Positions 53,947 to 61,098 of a DNA stretch of 64,000 nucleotides are shown here, piece after piece. Positions within the stretch are counted from its first letter, which is position 1, and each line of letters begins with the position of its first letter. The DNA is from Methylomonas montana (lineage in GTDB: Bacteria; Pseudomonadota; Gammaproteobacteria; Methylococcales; Methylomonadaceae), in assembly GCF_030490285.1 (NCBI RefSeq), contig NZ_CP129884.1:3038001-3102000 (forward strand). The letters are read 5' to 3'. A program made the translations under genes and the position numbers. Below the pieces are notes generated by a model. That model saw only the letters and a program-made list of their open reading frames with translations, had not been told where the DNA came from and did not search any database.

Positions 53947-56900
53947 GAGGCCTCCCGTTTGGTCATATTCAACAATTTCCTGATTTGGCCGACCCGAAAC
54001 TCGTCCGCCAGCGTTTGCAGTTTTGCAAAAAACGGCGCGTATTGCGGTTCACGCTGGCTCAGTTCAGCCAAGACTTTCTTCAAGCCCAGTAAATCGCCGA
54101 TCCGCACGCAATCGACGCAAGCGTCCAACAGCGCTTGCGGCGGCATTTCGATGGTTTCGGTCGGCGCAGAAACCGGCCGTTCGGCAGCATCCCGATACAA
54201 CCAGTCCAAGGACAGATACAGCTTCAATTTGTACATCAAATCCTGAACCTGGATGGGTTTGGACAGGAAATCGTTGCATCCGGCGTTCATCGCCGCCATC
54301 CGGTCGCTGGCATAGGCATTGGCACTCAGCACCACCACCGGCATCGCCCAATCCTGCTGCCGCAACAGCATCGCGGTTTCGATGCCGTCGATCCCGCTCA
54401 TGGAAATATCCAGCATAATCAGATCCGGCGGATTTTCCTTGACCTTTAAAAGGCATTCCTCGCCGGAACAAGCTTCGCTCAAATAAAACCCTAATGGCTC
54501 CAGCATGGCCAGCAATAACTCCCGGTGTTCGCGCTGGTCGTCGACGATCAAAATCTTCCGCCGCGGCCCCTGGTAGCCGATGATAGTCGCCTGCGGATTT
54601 TGTTCGATCTCGGCGCCGAGGCTAGGCAACAACAAGCGTACGGTAAACGTAGAACCCTGCCCCACCTGGCTCTTCACGGTCAATTCGCCGCCCATCACCT
54701 CGGTCAGAATCTTGCTGATCGTCAAACCCAAACCACTGCCGGCCACCGCATTGCCGGTCGGATTGGCTACTCGGGTAAACGGTTGAAAAATATTGTTCAG
54801 TTGCTGCTCGTCGATACCGCCACCAGTATCGATCACCTGAAAATTAGCGACGCCACCGCTGTATCCGATCCGAAACACGATACCCCCGCTCTCGGTAAAT
54901 TTGACGGCGTTGCCCAACAGATTAATCAACACCTGCCCCACCCGCTTTTCGTCGCCGCGTACCCGTTGCGGCAGCTGATTGCCGATCTGGCAGCTGAAGC
55001 TCAAACCTTTGTCTTCCGCTTGCAGCTTGTAGGTGTAAACCAGATGTTCAATGAAATCCGGAAAATGGATCGGTTGGAATTTCAGCTCGAATTTACGCGC
55101 TTCGATGCGGGCAATATCCAAAATATCTTCCAGCAGCGCGCACAAATGTTCGCCGCTACGCTTCAAGGTCTCCACCGCTTGCCGGCGGTGTGCCGGAATC
55201 TCCGGATCTTGATGCAGAATATGCGCGTAACCGATGATGCTGTTCAGCGGCGAACGGATCTCGTGACTCATGCTGCTCAGAAAGCGGCTTTTAGCCTGAT
55301 TGGCGGTGTCGGCGAGCTTCATGGCCTGTTGCAACTTGCTGTCGGTTTTTTTGTGCTCGTCGATTTCCAGCAGCAATAATTGCGTCTGCTTGGCGGTTTC
55401 TTCGTGCGCGACCCGCCGGCTTTCCGCATTCAGGATCAGCCACCAGGTACACAAACCGATGAACACCAGCAAGGACGCATAGATCTTGAAAAAATTGTTC
55501 AACAACAGTGCAAACGCCGGCAGGTTTTGCTGAACGCTCAACAAGTCCTGATAGTAAATGATGCTGACGAAGATCCCGGTCAACACCGACAGGAACAAAA
55601 ACATCATGCTAAAGCGCAGCAAGCGCAAACGGGCGTTGATGCTCATCGCCGCCGGCATGAAACGCTTGGCCAAGGCTTCCAGATAATCGTCGAACCGAAA
55701 CCCCACCTTGCAGGCATCCAGGCAGCGGGCGTCCAATGTGCAGCACAGCGAGCAGATACTCCCGCCATAAGCCGGACAATAAGCGATGTCTTCATGCTCG
55801 AAATCGTTCTCACAAATCGAACATTGAGTATGCAGTTTGCGGTTATGTTCTTTCCGGTCGCGGGCCAGATAATGTCTGCCGCCGCAACAATAAGCGATGA
55901 CCGGCACCAACACGAACGACAAGCTCAAGGCGATAAATGCCGAAAAGGCCTTGGGCACCTCGCCAAACAAGCCTACATAGGCCAGTATCGACATCACCGA
56001 GGCAACGAAGGTGGCGATAATCCCGACTGGATTCAGATCGGACAAATACGCGCGTTTGAACTCCACCACTTTCGGGCTCAAGCCCAGCGGTTTGTTGATC
56101 ATCAATTCCGCCGCCACCGCGCTGATCCAGGCGATCGACATATTCGAGAACAAGCCCAGCACCTTTTCCAGCGCACCGAACACCCCAAATTCCATCAGCA
56201 GCAGCGCGATCAACACATTAAACAACAACCACACCACCCGGCCTGGATGGCTATGCGTCAAGCGTGAAAAGAAGTTGGACCAAGCCAGCGAGCCGGCATA
56301 GGCGTTGGTGACGTTGATCTTGATCTGACTGAGGACCACGAACAAGGTCGTGGTCGCCAGGGCCCATTGCGGATTGTCGAACAGCTCGTTATAAGCCACC
56401 AGATACATCTGGGTCGGCTCGTGAGCGTGGGCAGGATCGATACCGTGACGTATCGCCAGATGCGCCAGCAAGGCGCCGGCTATCTGCCGAATCACCCCAA
56501 ACACGATCCAGCCCGGCCCGGCCGCCAACATCGCCGCCCACCATTTAAACCGATTGGCCTTGGTTTTATCCGGCATAAACCGTAGAAAATCCACTTGTTC
56601 GCCGATTTGCGCGACCATCGAAAACGCCACCGTGGTGGCGGTGCCGAACAACAGCCAATCGAAACCCTGGCCGCTGCCGGCGATCCAGAAATAGGTTTTC
56701 AGTGTCAACAACGCTTCGGGTTCGCGCATCGCCACGGCAATATAAGGCGCGATTAACAAGGTCAGCCAGACCGGTTGGGTCCAGAGTTGCATCCTGCTGA
56801 TGGTGGTGATGCCGAAAGTCACCAACGGCACCACGATCACCGCACTGACCACATGGGCGATGGCCAACGGAATCTGAAAATACAATTCGATCGCCAGCGA

Positions 56901-57314
56901 CATGATCGAGGCCTCCAGCGCAAACAGCGTGAAAGTAAACGAGGCGTAAATCAACGAAGTGACGGTGGAGCCGATGTAACCGAAACCCGCCGCGCGGGTC
57001 AGCAAATCGATGTCGATATGGTAACGGGCGGCGTAATAACTGATCGGCAAGCTGGTGATGAAAATCACCACGCCGACGATCAGAATCGCCCAAAAAGCAT
57101 TGGTAAAACCGTAATTGATCGACAGGAAACCGCCGATGGCTTCCAGCACCAGAAACGAGGTCGAGCCGAACGCGGTGTTGGCGACCTGAAACTCCGACCA
57201 CTTGCGGAAGCTACGCGGCGCGTAACGCAATGCGTAATCCTCCAACATCTCGTTGGCGACCAGGGCGTTGTAATCGCGGCGGATTTTAGTGATGTTTTGG
57301 TGGATGGCTTTCAT
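53943..57314 (-). CDS. Hybrid histidine kinase with N-terminal NCS1-type transporter domain
   Basis: The 1123-residue protein starts with a 12-helix transporter of the nucleobase:cation symporter-1 type (about residues 40-475). A cysteine-rich segment follows (498-535, CSICENDF, YCPAYGGSICSLCC, CLDAC), probably a zinc or metal site. Then come two more helices (570-590, 605-630), a coiled-coil, and HisKA with His684 (SHEIRSPLNS). The HATPase has NAVKF and GSGLGLTISK, and the receiver carries Asp969. The tail (1050-1123) is an HPt-like helix bundle without obvious His. It is comparable to CbrA, where a transporter-like domain senses substrate. Purines, pyrimidines, hydantoins or related nitrogen compounds are possible ligands. 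Confidence 0.88.
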   Translation of the reverse strand: MKAIHQNITKIRRDYNALVANEMLEDYALRYAPRSFRKWSEFQVANTAFGSTSFLVLEAIGGFLSINYGFTNAFWAILIVGVVIFITSLPISYYAARYHIDIDLLTRAAGFGYIGSTVTSLIYASFTFTLFALEASIMSLAIELYFQIPLAIAHVVSAVIVVPLVTFGITTISRMQLWTQPVWLTLLIAPYIAVAMREPEALLTLKTYFWIAGSGQGFDWLLFGTATTVAFSMVAQIGEQVDFLRFMPDKTKANRFKWWAAMLAAGPGWIVFGVIRQIAGALLAHLAIRHGIDPAHAHEPTQMYLVAYNELFDNPQWALATTTLFVVLSQIKINVTNAYAGSLAWSNFFSRLTHSHPGRVVWLLFNVLIALLLMEFGVFGALEKVLGLFSNMSIAWISAVAAELMINKPLGLSPKVVEFKRAYLSDLNPVGIIATFVASVMSILAYVGLFGEVPKAFSAFIALSLSFVLVPVIAYCCGGRHYLARDRKEHNRKLHTQCSICENDFEHEDIAYCPAYGGSICSLCCTLDARCLDACKVGFRFDDYLEALAKRFMPAAMSINARLRLLRFSMMFLFLSVLTGIFVSIIYYQDLLSVQQNLPAFALLLNNFFKIYASLLVFIGLCTWWLILNAESRRVAHEETAKQTQLLLLEIDEHKKTDSKLQQAMKLADTANQAKSRFLSSMSHEIRSPLNSIIGYAHILHQDPEIPAHRRQAVETLKRSGEHLCALLEDILDIARIEARKFELKFQPIHFPDFIEHLVYTYKLQAEDKGLSFSCQIGNQLPQRVRGDEKRVGQVLINLLGNAVKFTESGGIVFRIGYSGGVANFQVIDTGGGIDEQQLNNIFQPFTRVANPTGNAVAGSGLGLTISKILTEVMGGELTVKSQVGQGSTFTVRLLLPSLGAEIEQNPQATIIGYQGPRRKILIVDDQREHRELLLAMLEPLGFYLSEACSGEECLLKVKENPPDLIMLDISMSGIDGIETAMLLRQQDWAMPVVVLSANAYASDRMAAMNAGCNDFLSKPIQVQDLMYKLKLYLSLDWLYRDAAERPVSAPTETIEMPPQALLDACVDCVRIGDLLGLKKVLAELSQREPQYAPFFAKLQTLADEFRVGQIRKLLNMTKREAS

Positions 57315-57322
57315 TTATGTTG

Positions 57323-57388
57323 TGTCGCTGTCGCGACGGGCTATTTTAAATGTTGGTTCGGAACCGACGGCCGCAATATTTTCGCTAC
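57323..57388 (-). repeat. REP-like element downstream of the RAYT gene
   Basis: On the minus strand it begins GTAGCG and holds GTCGG/CCGAC and GTCGC/GCGAC palindromes. It lies in the kinase upstream region and resembles the element at 14166-14246. The assignment is tentative. Confidence 0.4.
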
Positions 57389-57428
57389 GAAAACCATCTC
57401 GAATTTTAAATTTATAAAAACGGGATCG

Positions 57429-57459
57429 GTAGGTCCGATTAGCGCAGCGTAATCGGACG
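57429..57459 (+). repeat. REP element, left flank of the RAYT gene
   Basis: A 31-base REP unit with head GTAGG and palindrome CCGATTAGCG/CGTAATCGG. The same unit, differing at one base, stands in reverse orientation at 58042-58072, so the two flank the transposase gene as an inverted pair. Confidence 0.85.
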
Positions 57460-57463
57460 CATG

Positions 57464-57994
57464 TTAATCATCCCCTTCCACCGACATATCCACGTTACCA
57501 CCCCAATATTCCGGATAAACGCCATTTTCGACATACCGATGAAAACTGGAATAAGGCCAATCAATAGCCCGTCCCACAAGACCATGTTTAAGCGGATTGA
57601 CGTGAACATAATCAACATGGCGTTCGAAGTCTTTTTCATCGCGTATCGAATGCTCCCAAAAATGCCGTTGCCATATTCCGCGTTCATTGGCAGCTTTTCG
57701 TACACTCGACCGAAACTCCATTTTCGGTAACGCCCGCGAAAACCCGCTTTTGATTAAACGCCATCGCTTGCTGAAATCGGCATCGCCAGACGGCAACGTC
57801 CAAACTGCATGCATATGTTCCGGCAATACCACCCAGGCGTCGATTTGAAACGGATATCGTTTACGCACCGCCCGCACAGACTCACGTAACAATTCAATTT
57901 CCCGAATCAATAAATCGTTGTTTTTACGTTCCAATAAATTAACCGTAAAAAACCATGTGCCACCGGGAATAAATGCGCGTCGGTAATTGGGCAT
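57464..57994 (-). CDS. REP-associated tyrosine transposase (RAYT)
   Basis: The 176-residue protein is an IS200-like Y1 transposase: RRAFIPGGTWFFTVNL, VVLPEHMHAVWTLP (HMH with the two metal-binding histidines), and the tyrosine in HVDYVHVNPLKHGL. RAYTs cut and join REP sequences and are normally single copy and host-adapted. An inverted pair of REP units (57429-57459 and 58042-58072) flanks it, with GTAG heads outermost. The ATG at 57994 (MPNYRR) fits the family start better than that at 58012. Confidence 0.92.
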   Translation of the reverse strand: MPNYRRAFIPGGTWFFTVNLLERKNNDLLIREIELLRESVRAVRKRYPFQIDAWVVLPEHMHAVWTLPSGDADFSKRWRLIKSGFSRALPKMEFRSSVRKAANERGIWQRHFWEHSIRDEKDFERHVDYVHVNPLKHGLVGRAIDWPYSSFHRYVENGVYPEYWGGNVDMSVEGDD

Positions 57995-58041
57995 GGTTCT
58001 GTACGATTTCAAGAATGTGAATTTTGTTGGTTTTATACATT

Positions 58042-58072
58042 CGTCCGATTACGCTCCGCTAATCGGACCTAC
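58042..58072 (-). repeat. REP element, right flank of the RAYT gene
   Basis: The reverse complement of this unit reads GTAGGTCCGATTAGCG and so on, identical to 57429-57459 except at one base in the loop. With the left copy it forms an inverted pair around the transposase gene. Confidence 0.85.
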
Positions 58073-58159
58073 GCGGGCTCCGATGCTCGGCGCGGCATCA
58101 GGGGATGAAAACCATCCCGCAATCAAAACGGATTTGGTCAAATCAACGAAACCAAATTC

Positions 58160-58234
58160 GTAGGCCAGAATAAGCCGCCAGGCGTTTCTGGCATTCAACG
58201 TTTGCCGGAAACGCTAACGCTTATTCCGGCCTAC
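58160..58234. repeat. BIME-like pair of inverted REP units
   Basis: Two units, GTAGGCCAGAATAAGC at the left and the reverse of GTAGGCCGGAATAAGC at the right, point toward each other with GCGTTTCTGGC and GCCGGAAACGC halves in between. The GTAGGCC head is a second REP family, in the same neighbourhood as the RAYT gene. Confidence 0.75.
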
Positions 58235-58352
58235 ATGGCTTCAAATTAGTACATCGTACAACACAATCAAATACTTAGTTCTCGATACCGTCTAACAGCT
58301 TATTTCCTTAAAAAGTGGACACAATTCCCGTTATTCCGCCCCGAGCATCGCA

Positions 58353-58682
58353 GCTTTTGGCGAGAACAGCCCGAAAGGGGAGCGGCAGGGATGCCGCTCG
58401 TTTTCCGCAGGGGCTGGATGCCCCTTCGGAAAACCCTCGCCAAAAGCGACAAATTTGCCTGGAGCAAATTTGAACAGCCGATAGGCTGGCCCGGAGGGCG
58501 AAAACCATGGATGGTTTTCGCAAAAGCGCAGGAAATTGGCGAAATTCCGGGTGGCCTTTTCTTTGAATACTTTCTTTTGGCCACGCAAAAGAAAGTATTT
58601 CGGCCGTCGGGCCGACAAATCGGCAGGATAGCCGATTTGCATGCGAGAGCACCCGTAGGGCGAAAAACAGGGAGGTTTTTCG
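58353..58682 (+). ncRNA. Hairpin array with GGA loops (possible noncoding RNA or repeat element)
   Basis: Within about 330 bases there are ten or more near-perfect hairpins. Loops with GGA on the plus strand: 58380-58399 (GGGA), 58401-58433 (TGGAT, 13-bp stem with one mismatch), 58450-58472 (CTGGA, 9 bp), 58489-58499 (GGA), 58499-58520 (TGGA), 58616-58639 (AGGATA, 9 bp), 58661-58682 (AGGGAG, 8 bp). Others lack GGA: 58475-58488, 58566-58599 (14 bp), 58601-58614. An outer 12-bp stem (GCTTTTGGCGAG at 58353-58364 with CTCGCCAAAAGC at 58436-58447) encloses the first two. GGA in hairpin loops is the CsrA/RsmA target. No promoter is certain. A dispersed, highly structured repeat is the main alternative. 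Confidence 0.55.
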
Positions 58683-58742
58683 TGAAACCGACTTCAACAA
58701 AACCCGTCGCGCCAGCGACACCTTCTTATCCCCTCATCCTAG

Positions 58743-58763
58743 CCTTCTCCCTGAGGGAGAAGG
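58743..58763. repeat. CCTTCTCCC/GGGAGAAGG hairpin
   Basis: A perfect 9-bp stem with TGA loop. Sequences of the form ctcatcctagccttctccctgagg are common interspersed units in proteobacterial genomes. It lies downstream of the exported-protein gene and may act as its terminator. Confidence 0.5.
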
Positions 58764-58825
58764 AACAGACCGTCCCGCAATCAAATACATATGAGCGCCA
58801 CACGCAAATCGTGCCAAGCAAAACA

Positions 58826-59569
58826 TCACTTCCTGTCATGCCCAAACTGAAAGATAACCGGCGTCCCCTGATTATGAATAATAATCTCCTTCTTCGGCTC
58901 GTCGCCGACAGCGGCCGGCTGCGCGACGCCATTCGCATCGACCGCGCCCGGCACTTCTCTTACTTCCACCCGCACATCCGGCATCCATTTGGGCTTGAAC
59001 AACTCGGTCCTGGCACGGCCCGGCTGCTTAGGTAGCGGCACATGTTCCAACACATCCAGACAGGCGGTGCCAATCTGATCGACCAATTTATCGATGATGC
59101 GCGGCGGCAACACGTCCTTATCCAAGGCATGCGCGCTAAAAGTCGATTCACGCTCGATCAACACGGCTTGAGTCCCCGCATCGCGCAACGTACAGGTAAT
59201 CGGCAACACGTCGGCCTTTTGAAAATCGGTCGCGCGCGGGTCGGAGTTACCGCTGGAAAAGGAAAAACCCACCGGCGTTTCACGGTGCGTCACTTTACCG
59301 AGCTTGGTCAGTAGGCGGTGACTGTAAGGGCCTTTGGCTGTTAATGGAAACTCCCACTCCGTCAAATTGACGCGCACCCGCTCGGCGATTTGCGCCGGCT
59401 CCACTGCGACCCCGAACTGTTTCAGATTCTCATCAGCCAACACAAATTCGATAGCCTGCAACGGTTTAACGGCGTCGGCTGCCGGCTCCGCCGAGACCGG
59501 GCGAATCAACACCAATGCCAACCCACACCAGCCGGCAATACAATAAAAACTGGACGTTATTTTCATCAT
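58826..59569 (-). CDS. Exported hypothetical protein
   Basis: The 247-residue protein has a signal peptide (about 27 residues to VSA). The mature part has alternating beta segments: TEWEFPLTAKGPYSHRLL, DVLPITCTLRDAGTQAVLIER, and a C-terminal IIIHNQGTPVIFQF. Two cysteines could form a disulfide. No family is recognised. It is divergent from the porin with 177 bases between. Confidence 0.7.
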   Translation of the reverse strand: MMKITSSFYCIAGWCGLALVLIRPVSAEPAADAVKPLQAIEFVLADENLKQFGVAVEPAQIAERVRVNLTEWEFPLTAKGPYSHRLLTKLGKVTHRETPVGFSFSSGNSDPRATDFQKADVLPITCTLRDAGTQAVLIERESTFSAHALDKDVLPPRIIDKLVDQIGTACLDVLEHVPLPKQPGRARTELFKPKWMPDVRVEVREVPGAVDANGVAQPAAVGDEPKKEIIIHNQGTPVIFQFGHDRK

Positions 59570-59628
59570 CGTAAATCTCCCAAGTTAAGACGCACTCTAC
59601 GGAAGCTCTCTGTAGCCGGCCATACGTC

Positions 59629-59648
59629 AAATGACTGATGAGTCATTT
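59629..59648. promoter_or_regulatory. Perfect inverted repeat upstream of the porin gene
   Basis: AAATGACT GATG AGTCATTT, 8 bp on each side of a 4-base centre, lies about 100 bases upstream of the porin start in the divergent region. Size and symmetry fit an operator, possibly for the LuxR-type regulator at 53014-53946. No sigma-54 element with the correct spacing was found beside it. Confidence 0.45.
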
Positions 59649-59746
59649 ACCCGATTGTGGCGGGTGCCTGCAAATTCAACAATCTCCCCGACGTTTTCGA
59701 TCGCCATCGCCGCTGGCAATGGTTTGTTTAATCCAGATAAAGGGGA

Positions 59747-60985
59747 ATGCAAATGACTGGTTTTAACCCACAAAAATTAAGCGGCCGGGCCATCGGCTTG
59801 CTGAGCGGGGTGGCCTTGGGCGCCATCGGCCTGGGACAAACGCCCGAAGCGCAGGCAGGCGCCACCTTCAAAATCGACGATACCAAATGGGTTAGCGTCG
59901 GCGCAGGTCTGAGAACCAGTTTCCGCGCCCAGGAAAGCGGCGCCGGGGCGAATGGCGAAAAATGGAACAACGACTTCAATCTGGACAACATCCGTTTATA
60001 TATCAACGGTCAGATTCATAAATATTTGAAAGTGGAATTCAACACCGACTGCCAAACCTGCGGCAACGGCGGCGAAGTACGGGTGCTGGATGCGATCGGC
60101 AAATTCGAGGTTAATCCATACGCGAACTTGTGGGTGGGCCGGATGCTGGTGCCAGCCGAGCGCCGCGAGATGAACGGTCCGTTCTACAGCGCGGTCTACA
60201 ACATCTTTTCGGCCGGCACGCCGTTCGAACCGGCCGATTATAATCTGGTGATCAAATCCGACGGCACTTCCGCCGGTTCCTTCGGCCGCGACGACGGTGC
60301 GACGTTTTGGGGTGCGGCGTTTAACGGCCGCTTCCAATACGCCGCCGGTTTCTTCCGCGGCCTGCGCGGCGGTGCCAACGTCAACGACAATATTTTGTAC
60401 GGCCAACGCTTTGCTTATAACTTCTGGGACGTGGAGAAAAATCCCGGCTATTACACCTCCGGCACTTATTACGGTAAAGGCGGCGACATCCTGACAGTGG
60501 GTGTTTCCAATCAATATCAAGAAGGCGGCGCCGGCACGGCCGCCGATCCAGGTAACTTTCGCGGTACCACGGTCGATGTGTTGATGGAAAAAGTCTTAGC
60601 TGGCGGCGGTGTGGTCACCGTGAACGGCGAGTACAAAAACTACGGTATCTCCAACGGCTACAGCCAGGCATCGCGCGATGCCGGCGGCGGCTTCGATATG
60701 TTCGAAGGCAACGCTTATGACGTCAGCGGCATGTATTTATTCCCGCAAAAAGTCGGCATCGGCCAGTTCCAACCCTTCCTGCGCTATGTCAACGTCGATC
60801 CCAGCACCAGCAGCACCCGCGAAGTCTACGAAGGCGGCGTCAATTACATCATCGACGGCCACAACGCCAAGGTGTTTGCCAGCTACCAATACGGCGATTT
60901 GTTGACCAAAGGCCTGAATTACAAATCCACCGCGACCGGCGAGAACTCCAGCCAGGTCATGGTCGGCTTTCAATGGCAAATTTAA
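59747..60985 (+). CDS. Outer-membrane porin (FmdC-like)
   Basis: The 412-residue protein has a signal peptide (cleavage near AQA, about residue 37) and alternating beta strands ending in the terminal aromatic-type VMVGFQWQI, typical of a beta-barrel porin. A cysteine pair (DCQTCGNGG) lies in one loop. The position, just before urtA, recalls FmdC, the amide/urea porin of Methylophilus. RBS GGGGA lies 4 bases upstream of the start. It should admit urea or short-chain amides. The link is by context. Confidence 0.82.
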   Translation: MQMTGFNPQKLSGRAIGLLSGVALGAIGLGQTPEAQAGATFKIDDTKWVSVGAGLRTSFRAQESGAGANGEKWNNDFNLDNIRLYINGQIHKYLKVEFNTDCQTCGNGGEVRVLDAIGKFEVNPYANLWVGRMLVPAERREMNGPFYSAVYNIFSAGTPFEPADYNLVIKSDGTSAGSFGRDDGATFWGAAFNGRFQYAAGFFRGLRGGANVNDNILYGQRFAYNFWDVEKNPGYYTSGTYYGKGGDILTVGVSNQYQEGGAGTAADPGNFRGTTVDVLMEKVLAGGGVVTVNGEYKNYGISNGYSQASRDAGGGFDMFEGNAYDVSGMYLFPQKVGIGQFQPFLRYVNVDPSTSSTREVYEGGVNYIIDGHNAKVFASYQYGDLLTKGLNYKSTATGENSSQVMVGFQWQI

Positions 60986-60987
60986 AG

Positions 60988-61098
60988 GTAGGGTGGGCAC
61001 GGTTTATGTGTCCACGCGGAACAGATGTCTTCGCGCGTGGGCAAAAATGCCCAACCTACGGCTGTAATTGAACGATGGGCGAATAAATTCGCCCCTAC
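60988..61098. repeat. Two REP-like units between porin and urtA
   Basis: 60988-61059 begins GTAGGGTGGGCAC and ends TGCCCAACCTAC, an inverted repeat with an inner TGGGCA AAAA TGCCCA hairpin. 61077-61098 is a second palindrome (GGGCGAAT/ATTCGCCC) whose reverse reads GTAGGGGCGAA. Both have GTAG heads and fall 3 bases past the porin stop; they may end its transcript or set the urtA level. Confidence 0.65.

Follow-up and report, generated by a model that had tools for sequence, protein, structure and literature searches.

Related RNA families and repeats

Small RNAs of the CsrB/RsmX/Y/Z type carry many hairpins with GGA in the loop, in a context that follows the consensus of CsrA targets. In SELEX experiments this consensus was RUACARGGAUGU, and 51 of 55 ligands presented GGA in the loop of a hairpin; the ligands mostly had no more than four contiguous pairs, and very stable hairpins may disfavour CsrA (review, PMC7652899). 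A further family is TwoAYGGAY (RF01731, clan CL00106, CsrB/Rsm), an orphan RNA family known since 2010 from the human gut, gamma-Proteobacteria and Clostridiales. Its discovery paper classes it as a probable RNA that is unlikely to be cis-regulatory (PMC2864571), Rfam gives its type as Cis-reg, and CsrA binding has already been proposed for it in a passage of a motif paper (PMC4333381). Passages on the family in three papers do not mention paired arms, cargo genes or repeats. REP/RAYT systems combine a RAYT gene with REP palindromes. Integron cassettes are often single unrelated genes that vary between strains at one place and lie next to strand-specific hairpins.

The locus described here, located in a 64-kb window (the whole stretch of Methylomonas montana DNA that was analysed), resembles each of these systems in part. 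Like the CsrB/RsmX/Y/Z RNAs, its hairpin array has many GGA hairpins and a CsrA-type loop consensus; unlike them, it exists in tens of copies, often paired around genes, with a fixed covarying scaffold and scores below the Rfam cut-offs. With TwoAYGGAY it shares two adjacent GGA-type hairpins within a larger stem, the presence of several copies per genome, and divergent pairs. The window copy resembles REP/RAYT systems in holding a RAYT-like gene and REP-like palindromes; here, however, the REPs are palindromes separate from the array, which folds in its own way and has tips of its own, and RAYT genes are rare in divergent pairs elsewhere. As in integron cassettes, often single unrelated genes vary at one place beside strand-specific hairpins, whereas here the arms stand on both sides, are inverted, and are scattered over the chromosome. 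Searches of open-licence PMC texts brought up no title or abstract describing such arms in pairs around cargo genes. The best reading, to which a probability of about 0.6 is given, is that the array forms one arm of a repeated element bracketing gene cassettes, an RNA arm predicted to bind CsrA.

The hairpin array and its element

The hairpin scan of the window found eight perfect hairpins with stems of 6-14 bp, as well as shorter ones, within 58353-58682. Six of the eight have GGA in the loop (58380-58399, 58409-58425, 58450-58472, 58498-58521, 58616-58639 and 58661-58682), compared with one of 139 perfect hairpins (stem >=6, loop 3-8) in the rest of the window (Fisher p 1.5e-8), where TCC is found in 10 loops. 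The density of the array and its loop design are thus far beyond chance. The fold of the 411-nt stretch has z = -9.65, and none of 100 shuffles was equally stable. The preliminary description had reported dense hairpins, a 12-bp outer stem around the first two and seven GGA loops on the plus strand. The hairpins, the outer stem (58353-58364 with 58436-58447) and the plus strand of the GGA loops are confirmed, and six of these loops belong to perfect hairpins of at least 6 bp. The seventh, GCCC-GGA-GGGC at 58489-58499, looks fortuitous, since GTA stands at this position in the corresponding hairpin of the array (58651-58661).

The same description had noted no clear promoter and had likened the array to CsrB/RsmZ. 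In 57250-58900, no sigma-70-like promoter was found by a method confined to that promoter type. Across all Rfam families searched in 56000-61000, the best overlap on the array was RsmW, of the same clan as TwoAYGGAY, with 22.4 bits against a cut-off of 52, and neither RsmZ nor CsrB reaches its cut-off in this genome. A sponge sRNA gene of CsrB/RsmZ type standing alone at this locus would agree with the array of GGA hairpins and with the lack of a CsrB or RsmZ above cut-off elsewhere in the genome; it is nevertheless very improbable, given multiple copies, paired arms, the lack of a sigma-70-type promoter in the stretch searched and scores below the Rfam cut-offs. What survives of the comparison is the CsrA-type design of the GGA loops, not a dedicated sRNA gene. 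A protein-coding reading was rejected because stem covariation explains the conservation and the open reading frames (ORFs) at 58308-58721 (minus strand) and 58391-59035 (plus strand) have no Pfam match at E 0.001.

The array is the right arm of a multi-copy element, rather than a single CsrB/RsmZ gene. This arm covers 58322-58720 on the plus strand and begins, on its inward side, with the A-module (58322-58452; 140.3 bits, E 1.7e-34), which consists of a conserved 5' flank, the outer stem (58353-58447, helix 1 of the covariation analysis), a short hairpin, and two GGA hairpins. The first of these is A1 (58380-58399, GAGCGGCAGGGATGCCGCTC, helix 3), and the second is A2 (58400-58434, inner perfect stem 58409-58425, helices 4 and 5). 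In the aligned A-modules the inward start is a conserved stretch around CCGCGCCGAGCAYCG. The A-module is followed by the GGA hairpins B1 (58450-58472) and B2 (58498-58521, with a CATGGATG loop), by hairpin C (58566-58599, 14 bp) and hairpin D (58600-58615), both without GGA and recurrent in many arrays, by GGA hairpin E (58616-58639), and by a last GGA hairpin (58661-58682). These were located by the hairpin scan, combined for C, D and E with array comparison. The right outer tip hairpin, CGTCGCGCCAGCGACA (58705-58720), was recognized by comparing tips across arrays, whose outward end is a single hairpin CGTCGCG-NN-AGCGACA with variations, then mostly C. Since hairpins C and D and the tip lack GGA, the arm has another role as well.

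The left arm, on the minus strand, is broken, with a RAYT-like gene and REP-like palindromes between its parts. Its outer tip hairpin, TGTCGC..GCGACG (57323-57338), which is the same in same-site relatives, lies 8 bases from the start codon of a histidine-kinase gene (57312-57314, minus strand) and belongs to a remnant of the left array made up of the tip and degraded hairpins (57320-57407, converted from the coordinates of the extracted stretch). The gene nested in this arm (57464-58012, minus strand), which we take to be a RAYT-type (IS200-like Y1) transposase, has a weak Y1_Tnp match (E 6e-4; 20.3 bits against a Pfam cut-off of 23), and its ORF clusters with 16 others. It is flanked on the far side by a REP-like palindrome read in the sequence (GTCCGATTAGCG..CGTAATCGGAC, 57433-57458) and on the near side by one from the hairpin scan (58043-58068). 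Next comes a truncated left-arm A-module, which is its conserved inner flank (58068-58109, minus strand; model match 25.3 bits, E 8e-5). The left tip, the minus-strand inner flank and the right arm together span about 1.4 kb and form a divergent pair, of which the array is one half.

The centre between the two arms (58110-58321) includes another REP-like palindrome, GTAGGCCAGAATAAGC..GCTTATTCCGGCCTAC (58160-58234), for which Rfam gives a weak minus-strand match to naRNA4 below cut-off. The element ends at 58720. Just beyond it, at 58743-58763, is a perfect 9-bp hairpin, CCTTCTCCCTGAGGGAGAAGG; in several same-site relatives a similar sequence comes after the end of the array, so that this hairpin probably represents another repeat family.

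Copies and distribution

That the array might belong to a multi-copy repeat family, as had been suggested alongside the CsrB/RsmZ comparison, was borne out by the genome-wide search. The 411-nt stretch has 109 matches in its own genome in a DNA search, and R1, a covariance model of the A-module built on GGA-bearing copies, has 44 at E <=0.01 (38 above 80 bits), or 42 after the removal by hand of two antisense echoes. In 30 regions extracted around own-genome matches for comparison, the modules of the array recur in differing order. Matches to the DNA query are found in 28 of 31 genomes of the genus, own genome included, and matches to another copy (L025) in 45 of 101 genomes and 15 of 29 genera of the family. 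Across Gammaproteobacteria, R1 matches occur in at least 41 of 369 genomes and at least 35 of 272 genera; these figures, like the RF01731 genome counts given below, are lower bounds, since they derive from the best matches alone, with at most 9 or 7 candidates scored per genome under strict filters. With copy L025 as the query, the plasmid and phage collections returned no match, and on this ground a plasmid or phage origin was rejected.

Covarying stems and conserved GGA loops

For the covariation analysis, 128 copies of the A-module were selected by overall similarity and not by GGA, and 89 non-redundant copies were aligned. The fold is under selection. RNAalifold gives 33 pairs, of which 27 have compensatory double changes; 97.0% of the cells are paired, falling to 50.6-55.3% when the partner is slid by one base. 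Double changes fill 395 cells compared with a shuffled mean of 98.3, and none of 500 shuffles reaches any of five measures; as copies within a genome are related, such cell counts do not represent independent events. At pair 62-79, for example, A-U occurs in 45 copies, C-G in 29 and U-A in 15, and the pair is never broken. On the GGA strand, G-U exceeds A-C in both cells (80 vs 18) and distinct contexts (63 vs 16), which identifies it as the folding strand. This asymmetry fits RNA and is also compatible with folded single-stranded DNA.

GGA is present in the loop of A1 in 87 of the 89 copies and in that of A2 in all of them, the commonest A1 contexts being CAGGGATG (51 copies) and CATGGATG (17). 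The preliminary description had stated that conserved stems with unconserved loops would speak against its proposal; the opposite is found, as the loops are conserved and the stems vary. In 118 arrays, selected by similarity, 517 perfect hairpins have GGA in 305 loops, TCC in 3 and neither in 209, the last being mostly the recurrent hairpins C and D. Outside the family, 43 modules at 28 loci have stems unlike those of the family and keep the GGA hairpins, with two in 28 modules, one in 9 and none in 6, and a single TCC loop in all, although these counts lean towards GGA because R1 was built on GGA-bearing copies. A further hairpin type with GGA in the loop was observed outside the arrays, at L032:3100-3123 (TTCCCAACCTGGAGGTTGGGAA) and L025:3435-3456 (TTCCCAAGCCGGAGCTTGGGAA).

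The structure could also be that of a passive repeat, in which structured 3' ends stabilise mRNA or stop transcription and GGA is kept only for the sake of stable loops. Terminator-like sites in 57250-58900 number 10 against a shuffled mean of 2.6, and one arm lies sense-downstream of the bracketed gene whichever way the gene points, both of which agree with this explanation. It is made improbable by the retention of GGA in loops of differing length and with differing neighbours, and by the absence of a T-run after hairpin C; moreover, we do not know of GGA as an extra-stable loop.

Relationship to TwoAYGGAY and CsrA

In a search with RF01731, the window array was not listed at E <=5, remaining short of the gathering cut-off of 43 bits, and no match was obtained in this genome at E 0.001. 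The window copy nonetheless has two neighbouring GGA hairpins whose loops, in CAGGGATG and CTGGATG contexts, are AYGGAY-like; the exact word AYGGAY is not in both loops, and GGA is common to both. The connection is made by intermediates. Among 13 distant loci scanned, five match RF01731 at sub-cut-off scores, the best being 40.6 bits vs 43. RF01731 itself has matches in at least 23 of 369 gammaproteobacterial genomes, at least 15 of them above cut-off and many with multiple copies, and its near pairs, among the matches listed, are divergent in five of six cases, four of these 153-171 bp apart. At least 8 genomes have matches to both R1 and RF01731, which overlap in G257, G431 and G468, and at L205 the two opposite arms are split between the models, one scoring 62.4 bits with RF01731 and the other 52.5 bits with R1. 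Matches on the same places or on opposite arms indicate that TwoAYGGAY and the window element are one kind, and the scaffold is, as judged through these intermediates, homologous to that of TwoAYGGAY. The Rfam search recommended in the preliminary description thus left the array below the cut-offs of the clan and the genome below those of CsrB and RsmZ, and led, through intermediates, to TwoAYGGAY.

CsrA binding by the arms is predicted from the loop consensus, the covariation and the TwoAYGGAY kinship. The arm loops CANGGAUG fit the core of the SELEX consensus; the stems comprise 6-15 bp, and their length is a mild argument against binding. One CsrA match is present in this genome, and CsrA is found in 49 of the 55 other genomes with R1 or RF01731 matches. 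In good assemblies, it occurs in 43 of 44 array-bearing genomes, compared with 280 of 314 in the sample (carriers vs the rest, own genome added: Fisher p 0.03). The carriers without a CsrA match are G169, G230, G295, G318 and G422, which are incomplete or contaminated, and G254, which passes the filter. This co-occurrence is consistent with a CsrA link but supports it weakly. As for the proposal that the array is a CsrA-sequestering RNA, near-invariant GGA, covarying stems, the SELEX consensus and the TwoAYGGAY homology support a CsrA-type design; the RNA would be a divergent arm and not a lone sRNA.

Divergent pairs

In the own genome, 15 pairs of neighbouring A-modules lie less than 4 kb apart, of which 11 are divergent, four tandem and none convergent (p 1.2e-4 vs one in four). 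Divergent pairs hold only 22 of the 42 modules of this genome; the rest are single, in tandem, or have a mate without an A-module. Across the class, with R1 and RF01731 combined, 20 of 30 pairs among the matches listed are divergent, five convergent and five tandem, and 18 of 28 are divergent when the own genome is left aside (p 1.3e-5). The input for these pairs comprised 137 and 55 rows together with 38 weaker or partial ones, which add one tandem pair (G221). Evidence for orientation comes from the own-genome and class-wide counts, not from the regions picked for opposite-strand pairs. Divergent arms have inverted ends with a common outer tip, also in same-site relatives, and are separated by 0.1-3.3 kb, often by one gene. 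One pair (L227) brackets what by eye resembles the core gene metG. Among the matches listed, convergent pairs were seen in G296 (L232) and G140 (L229) and perhaps form a sub-type.

Cargo turnover at the histidine-kinase site

The sequence flanking the histidine kinase, searched against 37 genomes of the genus, gave 30 matches, one of them in the own genome. The locus was read in 27 genomes, that is, in the window and in 26 of the 29 others (all except G028, G030 and G001). An array adjoins the kinase start in 18 of the 27 loci, and none was detected in nine. The array-less loci belong to some of the more distantly related genomes, and the array may thus go back to a single old insertion; all nine are too diverged for a target-site duplication to be read. 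The cargo at this site turns over: in these Methylomonas elements, 14 of 18 have a further cargo protein, belonging to 13 families without BLAST similarity at E 1e-5. The window, L127 and L130 carry RAYT only, and L129 consists of a left arm only. Two cargo families are also bracketed at another site: a 188-aa protein shares 79-80% identity with an L068 ORF, and a 450-aa protein 62% with one from L083.

Among the copies compared, the nearest relative of the left arm lies at the same site in nine cases, mostly as the left arm in another species, and at another site in one, compared with two and ten for the right arm (Fisher p 0.002; 5 of 27 rows are excluded, their nearest relative being the opposite arm at this site or a further array within the element). 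On these nearest scores, which are not a tree, cargo and right arm appear to be swapped as a unit, the left arm remaining in place. RAYT-like ORFs are common at this site (14 of 18 elements), but occur in only 2 of the 29 divergent pairs read at other sites (L034 and L081); RAYT as a general mover was therefore rejected. No common transposase was found among the ORFs inside the brackets read, a survey that would overlook an enzyme working in trans.

Common inverted tips, divergent arms, cargo turnover and the same cargo family at two sites are also what would be expected of a mobile element acting at the DNA level. Its hairpins would form in single-stranded DNA and, with the strand specificity of REP or attC hairpins, be recognized by a recombinase or transposase that contacts GGA; strand-specific folding of DNA would look similar to that described above. 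However, the loops match the CsrA consensus, and we know of no transposase contact that matches the array loops. The scarcity of RAYT in divergent pairs elsewhere and the lack of matches to copy L025 in the plasmid and phage collections also count against this explanation, which is considered unlikely, though not negligibly so.

Proposed mode of action

According to the preferred reading, that of a CsrA-binding RNA arm of a cassette-bracketing element, each arm is a structured array with the A-module as its core, in which an outer stem surrounds two GGA hairpins, and with the fixed tip hairpin at its end. The arms commonly lie in pairs that point away from a shared centre, which is either almost empty or contains a cargo gene. 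As RNA, the GGA strand would act when transcription of the cargo or a neighbour runs outward through the arm, and CsrA dimers could then bind the paired GGA loops, as their consensus, the covariation and the kinship with TwoAYGGAY suggest. With tens of arms per genome, such binding might stabilise or silence the carrier transcripts and titrate CsrA. Similar arms would also let cargo change places, by a recombination suggested by the arm pattern. At the window locus, the left arm looks inherited, and the cargo and right arm look as if brought from elsewhere.

A wider proposal is offered tentatively, as a possibility for which the odds are rather against than in favour. It holds that a class of gene cassettes occurs across Gammaproteobacteria with CsrA-binding RNAs at both ends, and that TwoAYGGAY represents the arms of this class. 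The arms would be exchange points that swap defence and orphan genes between sites and, at the same time, a dispersed CsrA sponge that ties the expression of captured cargo to the Csr system. The analysis gives an anatomy to TwoAYGGAY and suggests that hairpins of the CsrA type may move and be linked with accessory genes, which are sometimes of defence type. If the proposal is true, CsrA would be titrated by tens of dispersed copies rather than by one sRNA gene, and the arms could serve as a search handle for unknown defence genes, as the retron, SIR2 and HEC-04-like cargo hints.

Genes carried between the arms

The cargo includes a retron, a SIR2 gene, orphans and RAYT. In total, 68 cargo ORFs fall into 45 clusters; they were called mechanically (>=75 aa, longest first), with some spurious ORFs and some real ones displaced, such as the Tae4 gene of L013. 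Pfam searches with 30 non-RAYT ORFs, from the brackets and their like, gave matches above cut-off for 10, weaker matches only for three and none for 17. The families above cut-off are RVT_1, Tae4, SIR2_2, a zinc-ribbon-like Ribosomal_L32p match, SMI1_KNR4, HSDR_N, DUF2628, pentapeptide, AAA_15 and ankyrin. The SMI1_KNR4 gene (L014) is flanked by two arrays that point the same way, rather than by a divergent pair.

PADLOC matched five of ten cargo proteins and left five unmatched, a proportion that is not a rate, since the ten had been picked as possible defence genes. The matches are a type II-A retron reverse transcriptase and its NDT partner (L012), SIR2 (L025), a HEC-04-like ATPase (L074) and, weakly, a restriction-type system (L054). 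The two type II-A retron genes lie inside a divergent pair of the own genome (L012:1747-4682), with a transposase-like ORF between them that appears IS1595-like by eye. An identical 319-aa ORF, IS110-like by eye, was observed in two cassettes of one genome (G011), at L118:1277-2236 and L081:1716-2675.
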